Shown in pieces: positions 22,485 to 33,112 of a stretch of DNA of 33,649 nucleotides. This stretch comes from a virus. The notes under the pieces are model-generated. The model worked only from the letters and a program-made list of their open reading frames with translations. It was not told the DNA's origin and made no database searches. The stretch is taken from positions 1 to 33,649 of the IMG/VR virus record IMGVR_UViG_3300023108_000087; one strand, given 5' to 3'. Each line of letters begins with the position of its first letter. Within the stretch, counting starts at the first letter, position 1. The position numbers and the translations under genes were made by a program.

Positions 22485-23576
22485 TTAGTATAATATATCT
22501 CTTATAATTTTAGGTTCAGGTAATCCTTTAGGAAATACCCTTCCTCCTGTTATTCTGCCAATAGGTGTATCTCTCCTAAATTTCTCATAAACTTGTCTTC
22601 CTACTGATCTTGCAATACCACCTAAACCAAATGGTAAATTATCTAAAAATCCTTGACCACCTTCAATAGTAGTATTTTTTCTGTACTCATTTATACCATC
22701 TTTTCCTTCAATGTTATTAAAGTTAACAGCCGACACATTTTCTGTTGTTGATGCCCAATATCTATATTTAAATGTAACATCAACTTTTACAAATGCATTG
22801 CTTGAACTATAACTCATCTGTTGTGCTGAAATAGATTTAGGATACACTTCATAGCATTGAAGTTGATATGCTGACTCATTTGATCCAACTAGTCCTCTTA
22901 ACTTATCTAATTCTTCTAAGGTCATTTCTGATGTTGGTTTATATTGCAACAATGTATCTAAAAATGATCTTTTTAAAGGTGTTATTGTAATTTTACATGG
23001 GGCAGCATAATCGTCATAGTAACCTGCATCATATGATATAGGATCAATTACCATATTTTGCCATGCCTCAAAATAAACTCTTTCATCAAAATCCTGACCT
23101 GTGTAAAACGATAATGTCAATTCATCAAATGATACATTTTTACCAAATGATCTGCTTGGACCATAATATTGTTCATTAACATCATCTGTTATTGTTCTAC
23201 CTGGCATTGATACATCACTACAAAATAAATCTAATCTTAACTGTAATGATTGTCTTAAGCCTGTTGCCAATCTTCTAAAATTTTCAAATCTTTTTTCTTT
23301 ATCGTCTGCTTGAAACGTATATCCTCTACGTCTTAATGCTTCTGACATATTGTTAGGACCATCTACAGTTACGATAAATTGAGTAGGTCTTGCTAAACCT
23401 TCAGCAGATTGAATGCTTGATCTAAATCTGTTTAAAATAGAATCTCTATTTGTAGAAACATTGTTATATCCTGCTTTAGCAGCTGCCTGTTGTCTGTCAT
23501 AATGAGGTGCTGAAGGTGGTATACCTATCCTCAAATCTAAATCACCTATTTTTTTACCTACACTAATTAATGACAT
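22485..23576 (-). CDS. 54: Baseplate tube initiator gp54
   Basis: 363 residues (T4 320). QCYEVYPKSISAQQMSYSSS with VKVDVTFKYRYW matches T4 MFTGCIPISVSAPELSYDGD with TTFDVTFAYRVM. LFCSDVSMPGRTITDDV and SFDELTLSFYTGQDFDERVY show the general tail-tube fold shared by gp19, gp48 and gp54. gp54 sits on gp48 and nucleates the gp19 tube and gp18 sheath. The ATG shares one base with the stop of the upstream gene (TAATG), and an SD GGAG lies about 10 nt upstream. Confidence 0.85.
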   Translation of the reverse strand: MSLISVGKKIGDLDLRIGIPPSAPHYDRQQAAAKAGYNNVSTNRDSILNRFRSSIQSAEGLARPTQFIVTVDGPNNMSEALRRRGYTFQADDKEKRFENFRRLATGLRQSLQLRLDLFCSDVSMPGRTITDDVNEQYYGPSRSFGKNVSFDELTLSFYTGQDFDERVYFEAWQNMVIDPISYDAGYYDDYAAPCKITITPLKRSFLDTLLQYKPTSEMTLEELDKLRGLVGSNESAYQLQCYEVYPKSISAQQMSYSSSNAFVKVDVTFKYRYWASTTENVSAVNFNNIEGKDGINEYRKNTTIEGGQGFLDNLPFGLGGIARSVGRQVYEKFRRDTPIGRITGGRVFPKGLPEPKIIRDILY

Positions 23577-24639: not shown

Positions 24640-26208
24640 CTAATAACTTCTGTCACCTTTCTTTTTATTTTTATGTGCATCTTCTAATTCTTTATTTTCG
24701 ATTATTTCTTCTCCACCATCATTATTAGAAATAATGTGTCCAATATCATAGTTATCTTTATTTTCAAGGTAATGAATATCTGATATTGGTCTGCCAAACA
24801 TATCCTCTTTAGTTCCTGAAGTTTTATTAAATACATCATACCAATTTTCTTTTTGTCTTTCGTGTATAAGTTTTATAATACCTCTATCTTTTAAAGTAGG
24901 TATTAAAGTTTTTAATTGTACTTCAATCAAATCAAATCTCTTTTGCATCCGTAAGACATCGGTGGTGCTTTGCATTATATATTTTATACCTTCTCTATCA
25001 TCAATCTTTTTACCGTTTGAATCTACTTTGACATTACCATTTTCATCTAATTCATATTGATTAATACTCATAGATTTTATTTCTTCTTCTATCATCACTC
25101 TAGCAAATTCTTTTCTATCAACCACTGCAACCTTAGTTTTATATTTCTTAAAATCAGAAAATAGTTTTTCTAACACGTTTTGTCCTCTTTCAAATGAGGA
25201 ATTAAATATAAAATGATACTTAATAAGTAAATTCATAGCATTAGCATATTTTGGTATTTTTATATCTGTCAATTGAATACTAGCCAAAGTACCAATTAAT
25301 ATTTTAAGTAAATTATATTCCTCACTATCTAAATGTATTTTTTTCATATATGAAGTAGGATCTTCAAGCATTTTGTAGTACATACTAGCGTCAGGTAACT
25401 TATAATTAGCAGGAGAATTGATATTTTTAATCAAATGTATTGTTTCAAAAATCAACTGAATATGTCCAGCAACACTAAACCCGTACTTACCAGATTTCTC
25501 ACTAATATATTTTGGTGAACATAATGCAGGTAAATTATAATAATATATGATATCGTCTGAAATTTTAAATTTTAAAATATCAAACCAAATTAACCAATTT
25601 TTTCCTGATTGTGTAAATGGATTATTAGTATTGATACCCACAACTAATTTAGCAGCGTTTTTTAAAGATCCTTTAGTGACCACTTTTCCATCAATAACTT
25701 GGTCTAATATAGCATCCTTTTCATCACTTTGTAAATCATTCCAATAAAAATCAGTATAACTATTTCCATTTTCAAATGCGATAGTTCCAGTATATTTAAT
25801 TTTATTATCAAAAAAAGGTACAAGCGCTAATAGTCCTCGACTTTGTCCATCTATTATAAACTCTTCGGCATCTTTATAACCTTCAATTATCTTAATCGCT
25901 CTTTCTATAAATTCAACATTTTCTCCACTTAAAGATATATCGGCTGCCTGATTGAGTGCGTTTAACAATGCCTTTTTTGTTATAAAAATAAATGTTTGTA
26001 ATTGAGAACCACCTTCAAAAACAAAGTTTCCAGTCATATAGGAATTGGCAACTAAAGATGTCCAAACATCTTTTGGTAATATTCTTTGTAATAACTCTGG
26101 TACTGACACTACTCTACCAGATTTTAAATCATTATATAAATTTCTATAAGTATAGTTATCTTTTTTTGTAACTTCTACCTTGTTTTTAATTTTTACCTTA
26201 TTTTTCAT
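24640..26208 (-). CDS. DUF262-HNH (GmrSD-like) protein
   Basis: 522 residues. The N-terminal part has SVPELLQRILPKDVWTSLVA (family pattern iPxxQRxxxW) and FIIDGQSRGLLALVPFF at about 117-133, matching the DGQxR motif of DUF262 (GmrS/SspE-type nucleotide-binding domain). The last 35 residues are HNH-like (DUF1524/GmrD style): DIGHIISNNDGG with His491, Asn505, then HKNKKKG with Asn514. GmrSD enzymes are type IV restriction systems that cut modified DNA; the same pair occurs in SspE. Here they are fused, in a phage. The middle (about 200-450) is helical and unassigned. SD GGAGAG before the ATG; own sigma70 promoter and leader peptide upstream. Target or role not shown by the sequence. Confidence 0.72.
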   Translation of the reverse strand: MKNKVKIKNKVEVTKKDNYTYRNLYNDLKSGRVVSVPELLQRILPKDVWTSLVANSYMTGNFVFEGGSQLQTFIFITKKALLNALNQAADISLSGENVEFIERAIKIIEGYKDAEEFIIDGQSRGLLALVPFFDNKIKYTGTIAFENGNSYTDFYWNDLQSDEKDAILDQVIDGKVVTKGSLKNAAKLVVGINTNNPFTQSGKNWLIWFDILKFKISDDIIYYYNLPALCSPKYISEKSGKYGFSVAGHIQLIFETIHLIKNINSPANYKLPDASMYYKMLEDPTSYMKKIHLDSEEYNLLKILIGTLASIQLTDIKIPKYANAMNLLIKYHFIFNSSFERGQNVLEKLFSDFKKYKTKVAVVDRKEFARVMIEEEIKSMSINQYELDENGNVKVDSNGKKIDDREGIKYIMQSTTDVLRMQKRFDLIEVQLKTLIPTLKDRGIIKLIHERQKENWYDVFNKTSGTKEDMFGRPISDIHYLENKDNYDIGHIISNNDGGEEIIENKELEDAHKNKKKGDRSY

Positions 26209-28693: not shown

Positions 28694-28946
28694 TACTTTC
28701 TCTTGTTATTAAATTATCAGGTTTATCAATAGGCATGCCAGTTCTATCAAACCATTTGTTTTTTACATTATATACATGACTCATTGTACCATTAGATAGT
28801 TTGATTGATCTTTTATCAATCTTACCATCATAACTTGTGCCATCTTTTAAAATTAGATTTAGTGTGCCATGTAGATTTTGATATATTCTATCTATTGTTT
28901 TATCGCCTATTTTATTTGACTCAGGTGTTACTGGTTTTTCACTCAT
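28686..28946 (-). CDS. Unknown protein between gp59 and the kinase (86 aa)
   Basis: Begins MSEKPVTPESNKIGDKTIDR, then LHGTLNLILKDGTSYDGKID (beta-strand hairpin) and ends NLITRESNG. Probably a small beta domain. I know no family for it. ATG overlaps the gp59 stop (ATGA), SD GAGGTG is in the end of gp59, and its stop overlaps the kinase start, so it is translated as part of the gp33-gp59 operon. Confidence 0.7.
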   Translation of the reverse strand: MSEKPVTPESNKIGDKTIDRIYQNLHGTLNLILKDGTSYDGKIDKRSIKLSNGTMSHVYNVKNKWFDRTGMPIDKPDNLITRESNG

Positions 28947-29545
28947 ACAAACACCTCTTTCATAATAAATTTACATTTTGTTAAATTGAAATTAACAAAT
29001 GGTTTTAACTTGGCAATCTTAAATGACTTTTCAGGCCAGATAATAGTTTCAGCAATTTCTTTATCCCAATTTTTACAAAACGACAATATCTTATCCAAGA
29101 TGACGAATGTTTGTACTGCGATTTGTTCAGAAAGAAGTAACCGTAACAATCTTGGATGTTGGCCATTAGATATGCGAAAAACATCATCAAAAGAAATCCT
29201 ATCAGCATCAATGACATTACGCAATAATAAGCAATCGTTTCTAAAATTGTATGTAAATGATTGATTAAACTTTTTCCACTTTGTATAGTTTGTTTCTCCA
29301 TCAGCTCTAACTAAGTTTCCTATCCATGTTTTTGAATTATGAAAGAAATTACAGACAAAATATTCTAACATTTCTTCCTTATTGTATTTAGTTGTAAGTT
29401 TATGAAAGAAAAATCTATCATTACGCTTTAAAAATGTGTTAAAAGATGCATTAACTTTGGCATTGTGTTTGTAAAAATCATAATTAGAGGAAGTGAAGTG
29501 TAGTTTAATAGCCAAATATAATGTGTAAGCTTCATAACTGTTCAT
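28943..29545 (-). CDS. 59: Replicative helicase loader gp59
   Basis: 200 residues (T4 217). AYTLYLAIKLHFTSSNYDFYKHN corresponds position by position to the T4 segment with VYKLYLMIKQHMNGKYDVIK; RNDRFFFHKLTTKYNKEEML matches T4 RRDKYFFQKLSEKYKLKELA; TWIGNLVRADG matches T4 AWIGDISDAD. It is an all-helical protein that loads the gp41 helicase onto gp32-coated forks. Order gp33-gp59 is as in T4 (32-59-33). ATG overlaps the gp33 stop (ATGA), so it is coupled to gp33. Confidence 0.88.
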   Translation of the reverse strand: MNSYEAYTLYLAIKLHFTSSNYDFYKHNAKVNASFNTFLKRNDRFFFHKLTTKYNKEEMLEYFVCNFFHNSKTWIGNLVRADGETNYTKWKKFNQSFTYNFRNDCLLLRNVIDADRISFDDVFRISNGQHPRLLRLLLSEQIAVQTFVILDKILSFCKNWDKEIAETIIWPEKSFKIAKLKPFVNFNLTKCKFIMKEVFV

Positions 29546-29766
29546 ATAGGTAAAACTGCGGTACTTGATTTTTCAACCATGTTCAGTTTTTGTGCCTCTT
29601 CTTTTATTTTTTCTTTAAGTGGTTTGTTTATAAGTGGACCGACAGATGATAAGTCAATATCATTTTCTTCACAGTATTTAATAACTGCATCCATATAAGG
29701 TATTCTTTGTTTCTTAACCATATCTTCTATGATTAAACCAAACTTTTTACTATTCATTAAATTCAT
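29542..29766 (-). CDS. 33: Late transcription coactivator gp33
   Basis: 74 residues (T4 112, lacking the T4 N-terminal 35). KKFGLIIEDMVKKQRIPYMD, then AVIKYCEENDIDLSSVGPLI and LKEKIKEEAQKLNMVE, corresponds to T4 NGFIIEKMVEEFGMSYLEAT, then TAFLEENSIPETQFAKFIPS and IIEKIQSEAIDENLLRPS. gp33 bridges RNA polymerase and the sliding clamp gp45 at late promoters together with sigma gp55. The C-terminus (STAVLPI) is hydrophobic, as the clamp-binding end requires. It starts on the expected transcription start of a perfect sigma70 promoter, so the mRNA is leaderless; a second ATG 3 codons on is an alternative. Confidence 0.85.
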   Translation of the reverse strand: MNLMNSKKFGLIIEDMVKKQRIPYMDAVIKYCEENDIDLSSVGPLINKPLKEKIKEEAQKLNMVEKSSTAVLPI

Positions 29767-29772
29767 ACATTT

Positions 29773-29801
29773 ATTATATCATTTGTGAGTGATTTTGTCA
29801 A
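29773..29801 (-). promoter_or_regulatory. Consensus sigma70 promoter of gp33
   Basis: TTGACA (29801-29796), 17 nt, TATAAT (29778-29773), 6 nt, ATG at 29766. The -35 hexamer begins directly at the end of the tmRNA pseudoknot. Confidence 0.9.
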
Positions 29802-30036
29802 GCCTGTTTCTGTTACTCGGTACAGGCAAACCGTTTAGCAGTATTAAGCTGCCATCGCTAAATTGTTAGCATTTATAAGATGACTTTACGTTGTCAGCGA
29901 TTAAACTCCAGTAAGTTTTAACTGTATGTCGAACCTATTTCCACCCCTTAAATTTCATTGTTTAAATGGTGGAGTGGTTGGGTATTGCACCCAAGTCCAT
30001 ATCAGGTATTTTCTTACCTTCAACGTTTAATTCGGT
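29797..30036 (-). ncRNA. ssrA: Permuted two-piece tmRNA (ssrA)
   Basis: Order on the minus strand: acceptor piece (about 30036-29967), 19-nt spacer (29966-29948), coding piece (29947 to about 29797). The acceptor stem pairs GGGGTGG (29947-29941) with CCACTCC (29977-29971), 7 pairs with one G-U, then A and an encoded CCA. T-arm TTGGG-TGCAATA-CCCAA. D-loop motif AATAGGTTCGAC. P2 pairs CAG/CTG, CTTAC/GTAAG and GTTTAAT/ATTAAAC across the two pieces. The tag frame ends GCT AAC AAT TTA GCG ATG GCA GCT TAA (29870-29844), giving ANNLAMAA; its upstream start is uncertain. The stop lies in a GCAG/CTGC hairpin as in E. coli. A pseudoknot follows: CGGT/ACCG plus GCCTGT/ACAGGC. Function: rescue of stalled ribosomes with SmpB and tagging for proteolysis. 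Confidence 0.92.
29844..29870 (-). other. tmRNA proteolysis-tag frame
   Basis: Encodes ...ANNLAMAA then TAA, ending in two alanines like other SsrA tags. The frame stays open upstream for five more codons (SHLIN) to an in-frame TAA, so the resume codon may be earlier than the first Ala. Confidence 0.7.
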
Positions 30037-30356
30037 ATGTACAAATCAAATGTATGAAACAATAAACATCTTTCACTAGCATTTGGTACATCTATTGTAG
30101 CTGTAGTTTGTCCACTTTCACTGTTTACATAATAAGTTATCATATAAACAGGTTTACCAGTTTCTACCATACCTTCTCTTCCTAAGGATATATTTGACGG
30201 TTTAAAACTATAATGATTTAAATAACTGTCGATATATTCTGATGAAGCACATAATACTGGTGCTTGTGTCATATAATATTCACCAAGATGTTCTTCATGG
30301 TCTGCATATGCTACACTAGCAATTAATAAACTTAAAACTATTAATATTTTTTTCAT
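30027..30356 (-). CDS. Secreted protein of unknown function (109 aa)
   Basis: Clear signal peptide MKKILIVLSLLIASVAYA with cleavage after AYA, leaving about 91 residues. Two cysteines (one in APVLCASSEY, one in ERCLLFHTF) could form a disulfide in the periplasm. The mature part is beta-rich (MITYYVNSESGQTTATIDV). No family recognised. SD AAGGGA is well placed. A late box lies about 80 nt upstream (30437-30444). Its stop codon lies in the sequence that forms P2 of the tmRNA acceptor piece, so mRNA and tmRNA are probably cut from one transcript. Confidence 0.7.
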   Translation of the reverse strand: MKKILIVLSLLIASVAYADHEEHLGEYYMTQAPVLCASSEYIDSYLNHYSFKPSNISLGREGMVETGKPVYMITYYVNSESGQTTATIDVPNASERCLLFHTFDLYIPN

Positions 30357-30431
30357 AATTCCCTTTAGCTGTTAAGGTCGCAAGTAGGATAAAATAACTC
30401 ACCTTTTTAATTAATTCGACTATTGACTTTA

Positions 30432-31136
30432 TTAATTATTTATACTGTGGGTATCTAAAAAGTCTTTAGTATGTTTGTAAAATAAGTCTTGGTGATCTTT
30501 AATTTTATCTTCACCATGTAACCATTCTTGTACAAATCCATCTTCACAAGCAGCCAATATAACAGTTTGTTCTATTTTCTTTTCTGGATACAATTCTTCA
30601 AACATTTTAGCATATGCTGAACATTGTAAAAAGTTACCATAATTGTAATCAGCGTCACGTCTTTTTGTAGATGTTTTAAAATCAATTACAGACAGTTTAC
30701 CCTTATATTCAGCAATACAATCAACTTGTCCTGCGACACCTATCTCTTTTGAGTAAATAATTTCTTCTAGCATATGAATATTGTTTATTCTTGCTAGATA
30801 TGGTTTTATAATTCTAAAAAGACCAAGTGGTGTAACAGCAGTTATACCTACATTTTTATCATCTTCATTTCTTAAATGATTTTCTATTAGGGTATGTGTA
30901 GTTTTACCACGTGTTGTAGCAGAAACAGAAATATAGTTGGCCATTTTTACACCAACACTTTGTCTCCATGCTTCAATCTTTTGTTTTCTATCTGGTATGT
31001 TACCAAGAATAGAAGTAACAGAAGGCATATTAATGCCGTCAATTTCATATATTCTAATACCATTTTGGTTCTTACCTTTTTTACCTAAATTTTTAGGTAA
31101 AATACTTTCATCTAACTTCACATAATCATATGCCAT
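30432..31136 (-). CDS. PD-(D/E)XK exonuclease (RecB/Cas4/MGME1-like)
   Basis: 234 residues. The core is in order: SATTRGKTTHTLIENHL with H81, EEIIYSKEIGVAGQVDCIAE with E125 and D139, LSVIDFKTSTKRR with D152-x-K154, and FLQCSAYAKMF with Q171 and Y175. These are the metal and catalytic residues of the RecB-type nuclease family. The N-terminal GINMPSVTSILGNIPDRKQK is the helical start seen in phage homologs. It probably processes DNA ends in recombination or degrades host DNA. It has its own sigma70 promoter and SD AAGGAAGG, so it is expected early. Confidence 0.85.
   Translation of the reverse strand: MAYDYVKLDESILPKNLGKKGKNQNGIRIYEIDGINMPSVTSILGNIPDRKQKIEAWRQSVGVKMANYISVSATTRGKTTHTLIENHLRNEDDKNVGITAVTPLGLFRIIKPYLARINNIHMLEEIIYSKEIGVAGQVDCIAEYKGKLSVIDFKTSTKRRDADYNYGNFLQCSAYAKMFEELYPEKKIEQTVILAACEDGFVQEWLHGEDKIKDHQDLFYKHTKDFLDTHSINN
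30437..30444 (-). promoter_or_regulatory. Late promoter for the secreted protein and tmRNA
   Basis: The minus strand reads TATAAATAATTAATAAAG, an exact octamer, lying inside the last codons of the nuclease gene. The leader would be about 75 nt. It is the nearest upstream promoter I see for the tmRNA. Confidence 0.7.
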
Positions 31137-31165: not shown

Positions 31166-31194
31166 ATTATATCACAAAATACAAGATTGGTCAA
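31166..31194 (-). promoter_or_regulatory. Sigma70 promoter of the nuclease gene
   Basis: -35 TTGACC (31194-31189), 17 nt, -10 TATAAT (31171-31166). Here the leader is normal (about 24 nt) with SD AAGGAAGG, unlike the leaderless sigma70 cases. Confidence 0.85.
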
Positions 31195-32423: not shown

Positions 32424-32738
32424 TTATTTATTTTTTGCACTACGTCTAGCCTTGTACTTTTTTATTGCTTGTTCTGTTTTAACTTCTTTTACTGATCTTT
32501 TTCTATGCTGTTGTGCTAAAGGACTGTTAGGATGTGCTTCAGCAATTCTGCTTAAATTATCTTTCCAACCACCATCAGTTCTATAACTCATACCACTTAC
32601 ACCACCAACAATATTTAAACTGGTCAGTTGTTGTTTGATATGTTTATTTTTTTCTAAATAATCTTCCATTTCAGCAATACTCATCATATCGGTAAATGTT
32701 TTACCTGTCTTGGTATTTTTAAAAGTATATAATGGCAT
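32424..32738 (-). CDS. Conserved phage protein, FmdB-like N-terminus without cysteines (104 aa)
   Basis: Begins MPLYTFKNTKTGKTFTDMMS, a short beta hairpin like the FmdB zinc-ribbon start but with no CxxC. The middle SLNIVGGVSGMSYRTDGGWK, LSRIAEAHPNSPLAQQHRKR and the basic tail KKYKARRSAKNK form a pattern I recall from conserved proteins of T4-like cyanophages. Function unknown. ATG overlaps the stop of the upstream gene (TAATG). Its last codons AAT AAA TAA form a late box. Confidence 0.75.
   Translation of the reverse strand: MPLYTFKNTKTGKTFTDMMSIAEMEDYLEKNKHIKQQLTSLNIVGGVSGMSYRTDGGWKDNLSRIAEAHPNSPLAQQHRKRSVKEVKTEQAIKKYKARRSAKNK
32425..32432 (-). promoter_or_regulatory. Possible late promoter for 31894-32286
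   Basis: The minus strand reads AATAAATAATATAG, one mismatch to the octamer with a T4-like downstream extension. Expected start at 32419, the base of the structured leader element. Confidence 0.5.
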
Positions 32739-33112
32739 TATTTTAAAGATAGATGATAAGATAGTTGACTTGTAGCTTCAAGCATATCTTCTAAAATACT
32801 TTCTAAATCAATTTGTCCTACTATGTCTTTTGACATGTTAGCAATTATATTTGATTGTTCAACAACTTCTTTTTTTACAATCTCTACATCAGCATAATTT
32901 TTAATACCTGATCTCAACTCAGCACTAAAGTTAATTCTTTTATTATGTTTACCTTGCCATGTTTCAACAAATCGGTCATTAAGTTCATTAAATTTTGTAT
33001 AGTACTCACCTAATGCTTCGTGTTCAGAATATGATTCTGTTTGCCAATGATAACTTTGTACGTTATTTAAAAAGTTAATATTGTTTTGTATAAAATTTAT
33101 TATTTCATTCAT
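32738..33112 (-). CDS. Ferritin/Dps-like helical phage protein (DUF5856 type)
   Basis: 124 residues, helical. VQSYHWQTESYSEHEALGEY, then TKFNELNDRFVETWQGKHNK resembles the first two helices of Dps/ferritin-like proteins (His/Trp, then H-x-x-L-x-x-Y and D-x-x-x-E-x-x-x-G-K). I recall this pattern in small phage proteins of family DUF5856. Whether it binds metal is unclear: possible ligands are H22, H32, D45 and E48. A late-type box with 5-nt spacing precedes it and there is no SD. Confidence 0.6.
   Translation of the reverse strand: MNEIINFIQNNINFLNNVQSYHWQTESYSEHEALGEYYTKFNELNDRFVETWQGKHNKRINFSAELRSGIKNYADVEIVKKEVVEQSNIIANMSKDIVGQIDLESILEDMLEATSQLSYHLSLK

Follow-up and report, generated by a model that had tools for sequence, protein, structure and literature searches.

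The 33,649-base virus record analysed here (a 33.6-kb fragment, hereafter the window) carries a complete, circularly permuted two-piece tmRNA gene (ssrA) of the alphaproteobacterial type. The gene lies on the minus strand at positions 29802-30033, a span that runs from the 5' strand of helix P2 to the end of the 3' pseudoknot and corresponds to the precursor RNA. A cmscan search of the whole window at gathering thresholds returned only two matches, both to tmRNA models and both at 29802-30033: one to RF04321 (tmRNA_permuted; 91.9 bits, E = 1e-16) and one to RF01849 (alpha_tmRNA; 84.6 bits, E = 9.8e-22), the model that a first-pass annotation of this DNA had proposed as a check. Both scores exceed the curated gathering scores of 47 and 50 bits, respectively. 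ARAGORN, which is independent of cmscan, called one permuted tmRNA (tmRNA*) with the tag ANNLAMAA. Given these E-values, the independent ARAGORN call and the strong covariation among relatives described below, the tmRNA stands far above chance, and the permuted two-piece gene of the first-pass annotation is upheld by all three. Its span had been put at 29797-30036; the tmRNA within it holds, but positions 29797-29801 already belong to the promoter in front of gp33, being bases 1-5 of its -35 box TTGACA.

Each of the parts that had been named is present on the minus strand. The acceptor piece (29967-30033) is encoded first and comprises the 5' strands of P2, the T-arm (29978-29994), the 3' strand of the acceptor stem (CCACUCC, 29971-29977) and an encoded ACCA (29970-29967), with the CCA ending at 29967. 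Directly after the CCA comes a 19-nt spacer (29948-29966), which is expected to be removed, and then the coding piece (29802-29947), which holds the acceptor 5' strand (GGGGUGG, 29941-29947), the D-loop (GGUUCGAC, 29928-29935), the 3' strands of P2, the tag reading frame, the stop hairpin and the 3' pseudoknot. The T-arm, the acceptor 3' strand, the ACCA and the D-loop were assigned by reading the sequence. An acceptor piece that precedes the coding piece, with a short spacer between CCA and GGGGUGG, is the permuted order, and with the RF01849 match it bears out the acceptor-first arrangement of alphaproteobacterial type that had been claimed. The two acceptor strands form 7 bp that include a G3-U70 pair, the alanine identity element for AlaRS, and the P2 that joins both pieces consists of three helices. 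The tag frame (29844-29870; GCU AAC AAU UUA GCG AUG GCA GCU UAA), as also called by ARAGORN, encodes ANNLAMAA and ends as tmRNA tags do, in a hydrophobic, alanine-rich stretch followed by UAA; on reading the sequence, this stop codon sits in a GCAG/CUGC hairpin. An H-type pseudoknot (CGGU/ACCG and GCCUGU/ACAGGC, 29802-29833) closes the gene at 29802 and aligns to the 3' end of the alpha_tmRNA model. The mature ends of the two pieces would lie at about 29967 and 29947.

The gene is widespread among viruses and evolves as a structured RNA. A first pattern scan of IMG/VR yielded 49 viral loci and a later one more than 100; the pooled set comprised 154 loci with 129 distinct sequences. We took 45 base pairs from the window structure and followed them through 22 diverse viral homologues that were aligned together. 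The pairs are kept in 90.4% of cells, changes on both sides occur in 29 of the 45, and the covariation score reaches 0.390, against 0.149 for shuffled and at most 0.094 for slid controls; the covariation on which the first-pass annotation had staked its reading is thus present in related phages. In these 22 homologues the acceptor stem is 100% paired and the G3-U70 pair is invariant (U-G in 22/22). The three P2 helices show both-side changes with 77-91% of cells paired, in a MAFFT alignment where the distant P2 strands appear partly misaligned, which should lower the pair counts rather than raise them. The helices of the 3' pseudoknot (helices 7-9) likewise change on both sides. Tag sequences vary among the viral tmRNAs (ANNLAMAA, ANNLAIAA, ADSQGFALAA, ANSQGYALAA, ANLNSFALAA, GNNQFAMAA, GEDNFALAA), and despite these differences an open tag frame with a similar end is kept. 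In many of the viral loci gp33 lies downstream on the same strand within about 1.5 kb. The spacer (29948-29966) can itself be drawn as a putative five-pair hairpin (UUUAA/UUUAA), for which compensatory variants were read from the viral loci (UUUAA/UUUAA, UCAAA/UUUGA, UCUAA/UUAGA and UAUAA/UUAUA).

In trans-translation, AlaRS charges the CCA end of tmRNA, which together with SmpB and EF-Tu rescues stalled ribosomes and adds a degradation tag. Judged from its sequence and conservation, the gene very probably specifies a functional alpha-type two-piece tmRNA with which a T4-like marine phage sustains ribosome rescue during infection, in concert with host factors. The RNA would be co-transcribed with the exonuclease and secreted-protein genes upstream, its 19-nt spacer would be cut out by RNase P and other host nucleases, and the two pieces would be held together by the acceptor stem and P2 pairing. 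Host AlaRS would charge it with alanine through G3-U70; aided by the SmpB and EF-Tu of the host, it would then enter ribosomes stalled on broken mRNAs, append Ala-ANNLAMAA and release the ribosomes, and the tagged peptide would be broken down by host proteases of the ClpXP type. SmpB (PF01668) gave no match in the window record, a 33.6-kb fragment, or in the complete genome of the related phage Mosig, and the partner is therefore presumably supplied by the host. Most likely, the phage keeps the tmRNA so that ribosomes continue to turn over as host RNA is broken down and transcription redirected. Infection brings degradation of host mRNA and a demand for fast recycling of ribosomes; a maintained rescue capacity would be the simplest explanation for such a gene in a phage.

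The surrounding genes form a T4-like locus in the order exonuclease, secreted protein, tmRNA, gp33 and gp59, these five all on the minus strand; a kinase and a ssDNA-binding protein lie farther along. A PD-(D/E)XK-type exonuclease gene (30432-31136; PHROG 298, E = 1.4e-54) probably heads the transcription unit that includes the tmRNA, and a strong promoter-like TTGACC-17-TATAAT before it (31166-31194, minus strand, 11/12 consensus) is the likely start of that unit. The small secreted-protein gene that follows (30027-30356) has no PHROG match, and its family is conserved upstream of the tmRNA in relatives with the gp33 locus. Its stop codon (30029-30027) falls within tmRNA helix P2a, and in some relatives (e.g. 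L058 and L070) its frame enters the tmRNA by about 30-40 bases. The tmRNA in turn lies just upstream of gp33, the late promoter transcription accessory protein (29542-29766; PHROG 254, E = 7.8e-25), which is followed by a gp59-like DNA helicase loader (28943-29545; PHROG 269, E = 8.7e-64). That the tmRNA is flanked by the secreted-protein gene and gp33 agrees with the first description, and this arrangement recurs in Mosig. Between the tmRNA and gp33 there is a promoter-like site (29773-29801, minus strand) that matches the sigma70 consensus at 12/12 positions, TTGACA-17-TATAAT with an extended -10. Its TTGACA begins one base past the last paired base of the tmRNA, and TTGAC-TATAAT sites occur at the equivalent place in many relatives. 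Since the gp33 ATG at 29766 falls at the expected transcription start of this site, the gp33 mRNA is possibly leaderless or nearly so. Elsewhere in the window, a 522-aa protein (24640-26208, minus strand) lies among T4-like core genes without a PHROG match, and its C-terminal DIGHIISNNDGG looks HNH-like by eye. A Dps-like protein (32738-33112, minus strand; PHROG 858, starvation-inducible transcriptional regulator) is also phage-carried.

Other roles for the RNA have to be weighed against ribosome rescue. The first-pass annotation had put forward rescue, replacement of a lost host tmRNA and retagging of proteins as possible roles. The tmRNA could also be a decoy, or a modified form that does not itself carry out trans-translation but competes with that of the host or alters its tuning, for example with a tag by which peptides are spared or redirected. 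The tmRNA of phage DS6A, which has no tag, reportedly inhibits the cell's own tmRNA in E. coli (PMC11915505), and the window tag is short, its MAA ending being less usual. However, the relatives' tags end in ALAA or AMAA, as host tags do, and all core parts are present and conserved, including an open tag with its stop; because every part of a working tmRNA is conserved in this way, we consider such a role unlikely.

The arrangement of the locus invites two further readings. In one, the tmRNA would be part of an expression switch in the late-transcription locus that links ribosome status to late gene activation: translation up to the secreted-protein stop codon would cover the 5' strand of P2 and so gate tmRNA folding, while the abutting early-type promoter would yield an almost leaderless gp33 mRNA. 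We regard this as quite unlikely, and both the promoter abutment and the stop codon in P2a may simply reflect compact genomes. The same overlap of P2 with the upstream stop codon, and a gp33 promoter that starts right past the last paired base, might instead speak for a mainly cis-acting RNA, one that serves processing or regulation at the junction of the secreted-protein gene with gp33. Such an element would have no use for the conserved tag frame, the CCA and the AlaRS identity pair, and in some relatives other genes separate the tmRNA from gp33; we regard this reading as very unlikely. Although mobile elements commonly integrate at host ssrA (PMC9004378), it is also very unlikely that the gene is a functionless host fragment carried by chance as an integration scar or through transduction: no part of it is missing, its pairs covary, it keeps its place beside gp33 across many contigs and in two isolates, and it clusters with viral tmRNAs and away from the host genes that were sampled. 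Host flank or a transduction scar was rejected on this conservation, and with T4-like neighbours around it the gene is phage-borne, as the first-pass annotation had held. Ribosome rescue remains our preferred role.

The grouping with viral tmRNAs comes from a tree of 217 aligned columns, in which the viral genes separate from the sampled alphaproteobacterial genes with a support of 0.83 under midpoint rooting; the tree is rough and short, lends weak support only, and all its members were aligned to a phage-built model, which may favour a phage grouping. Hosts were sampled as the four Rhodobacterales-type genomes that a pattern scan of genome contigs gave, plus other alphaproteobacterial genomes, low-GC ones of 1.2-1.4 Mb included, with no SAR11 genes named among them; of the host genes sampled, the closest shares 62% identity with the window tmRNA over core columns. 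The tree suggests that the viral lineage is old and was not captured recently from a host. The permuted form is a pointer to alphaproteobacterial ancestry and not necessarily to the current host. An alphaproteobacterial host had been proposed for the window phage, and this is plausible because its gp33 shares 53% identity with the counterpart in a Pelagibacter phage and the gene order is shared. It is not proven, because phage Melnitz carries an alpha-type ssrA yet infects the gammaproteobacterial OM43 clade (PMC9004378). The window phage is a T4-like marine phage and probably related to the pelagimyophages.

Comparison with related phage genomes recovers the same gene near gp33 in two isolates. 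Pelagibacter phage Mosig EXVC030M (MT647606) has an annotated SsrA (Mosig_00148), also a permuted two-piece tmRNA, in the order exonuclease, homologous small secreted protein, ssrA and gp33. Its gp33 is 52.8% identical to that of the window, and its tmRNA differs in the tag (GEDNFALAA versus ANNLAMAA), in a longer spacer and in sequence, with about 61% identity over aligned core columns. The deposited genome of HTVC008M (KC465899), the type pelagimyophage, lacks a tmRNA annotation; in it we found a permuted tmRNA at 145146-145419 (L200:1468-1741), where the record annotates no feature. It scores 90.6 bits with RF04321 and 177 bits with our model R1, which was built without HTVC008M, so that this match is an independent check. 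It belongs to the same family and lies upstream of gp33 after exonuclease and small-protein genes; it differs in its tag (ANFNEYALAA) and in two more small genes that separate it from gp33. A nucleotide search of deposited phages with the window tmRNA gave no match at E = 1e-5; one with a relative's tmRNA did reach HTVC008M. The wide conservation at the gp33 locus suggests that T4-like phages infecting streamlined marine bacteria have a lasting need for ribosome rescue, a role that can be tested in culture on Pelagibacter HTCC1062 with Mosig or HTVC008M.

Phage tmRNAs of this kind have been described before. A count of public phage genomes gave 53 two-piece tmRNAs, and in Melnitz, a phage of OM43 (Methylophilales), a two-piece tmRNA lies upstream of a gp33-type coactivator (PMC9004378). 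The tmRNA database paper, from which the RF04321 model originates, holds 79 bacteriophage sequences (PMC11915505). By its published description, Melnitz has the same arrangement as the window; it differs in a glutamine riboswitch reported at its ssrA, an association called common but not defining (PMC9004378), whereas none was detected at the window tmRNA (positions 29400-30500, no match even at E up to 5). In the Mosig stretch (L051) ssrA and a glutamine riboswitch match are about 19 kb apart, the match being outside the gene, and a manA RNA adjoins the rubrerythrin gene (L051:7198-7251 and 23165-23372, with the glutamine riboswitch). With the alphaproteobacterial two-piece tmRNA (RF01849, Caulobacter type) the window gene shares gene order, the G3-U70 acceptor stem, P2, the tag and the 3' pseudoknot; gene and tag are shorter than in the Caulobacter type, and the best sampled host gene matches at the 62% given above. 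The window tmRNA is not new in kind, phage two-piece tmRNAs at the gp33 locus being already published and annotated; what it contributes is a divergent lineage of a phage gene that is known but under-annotated.
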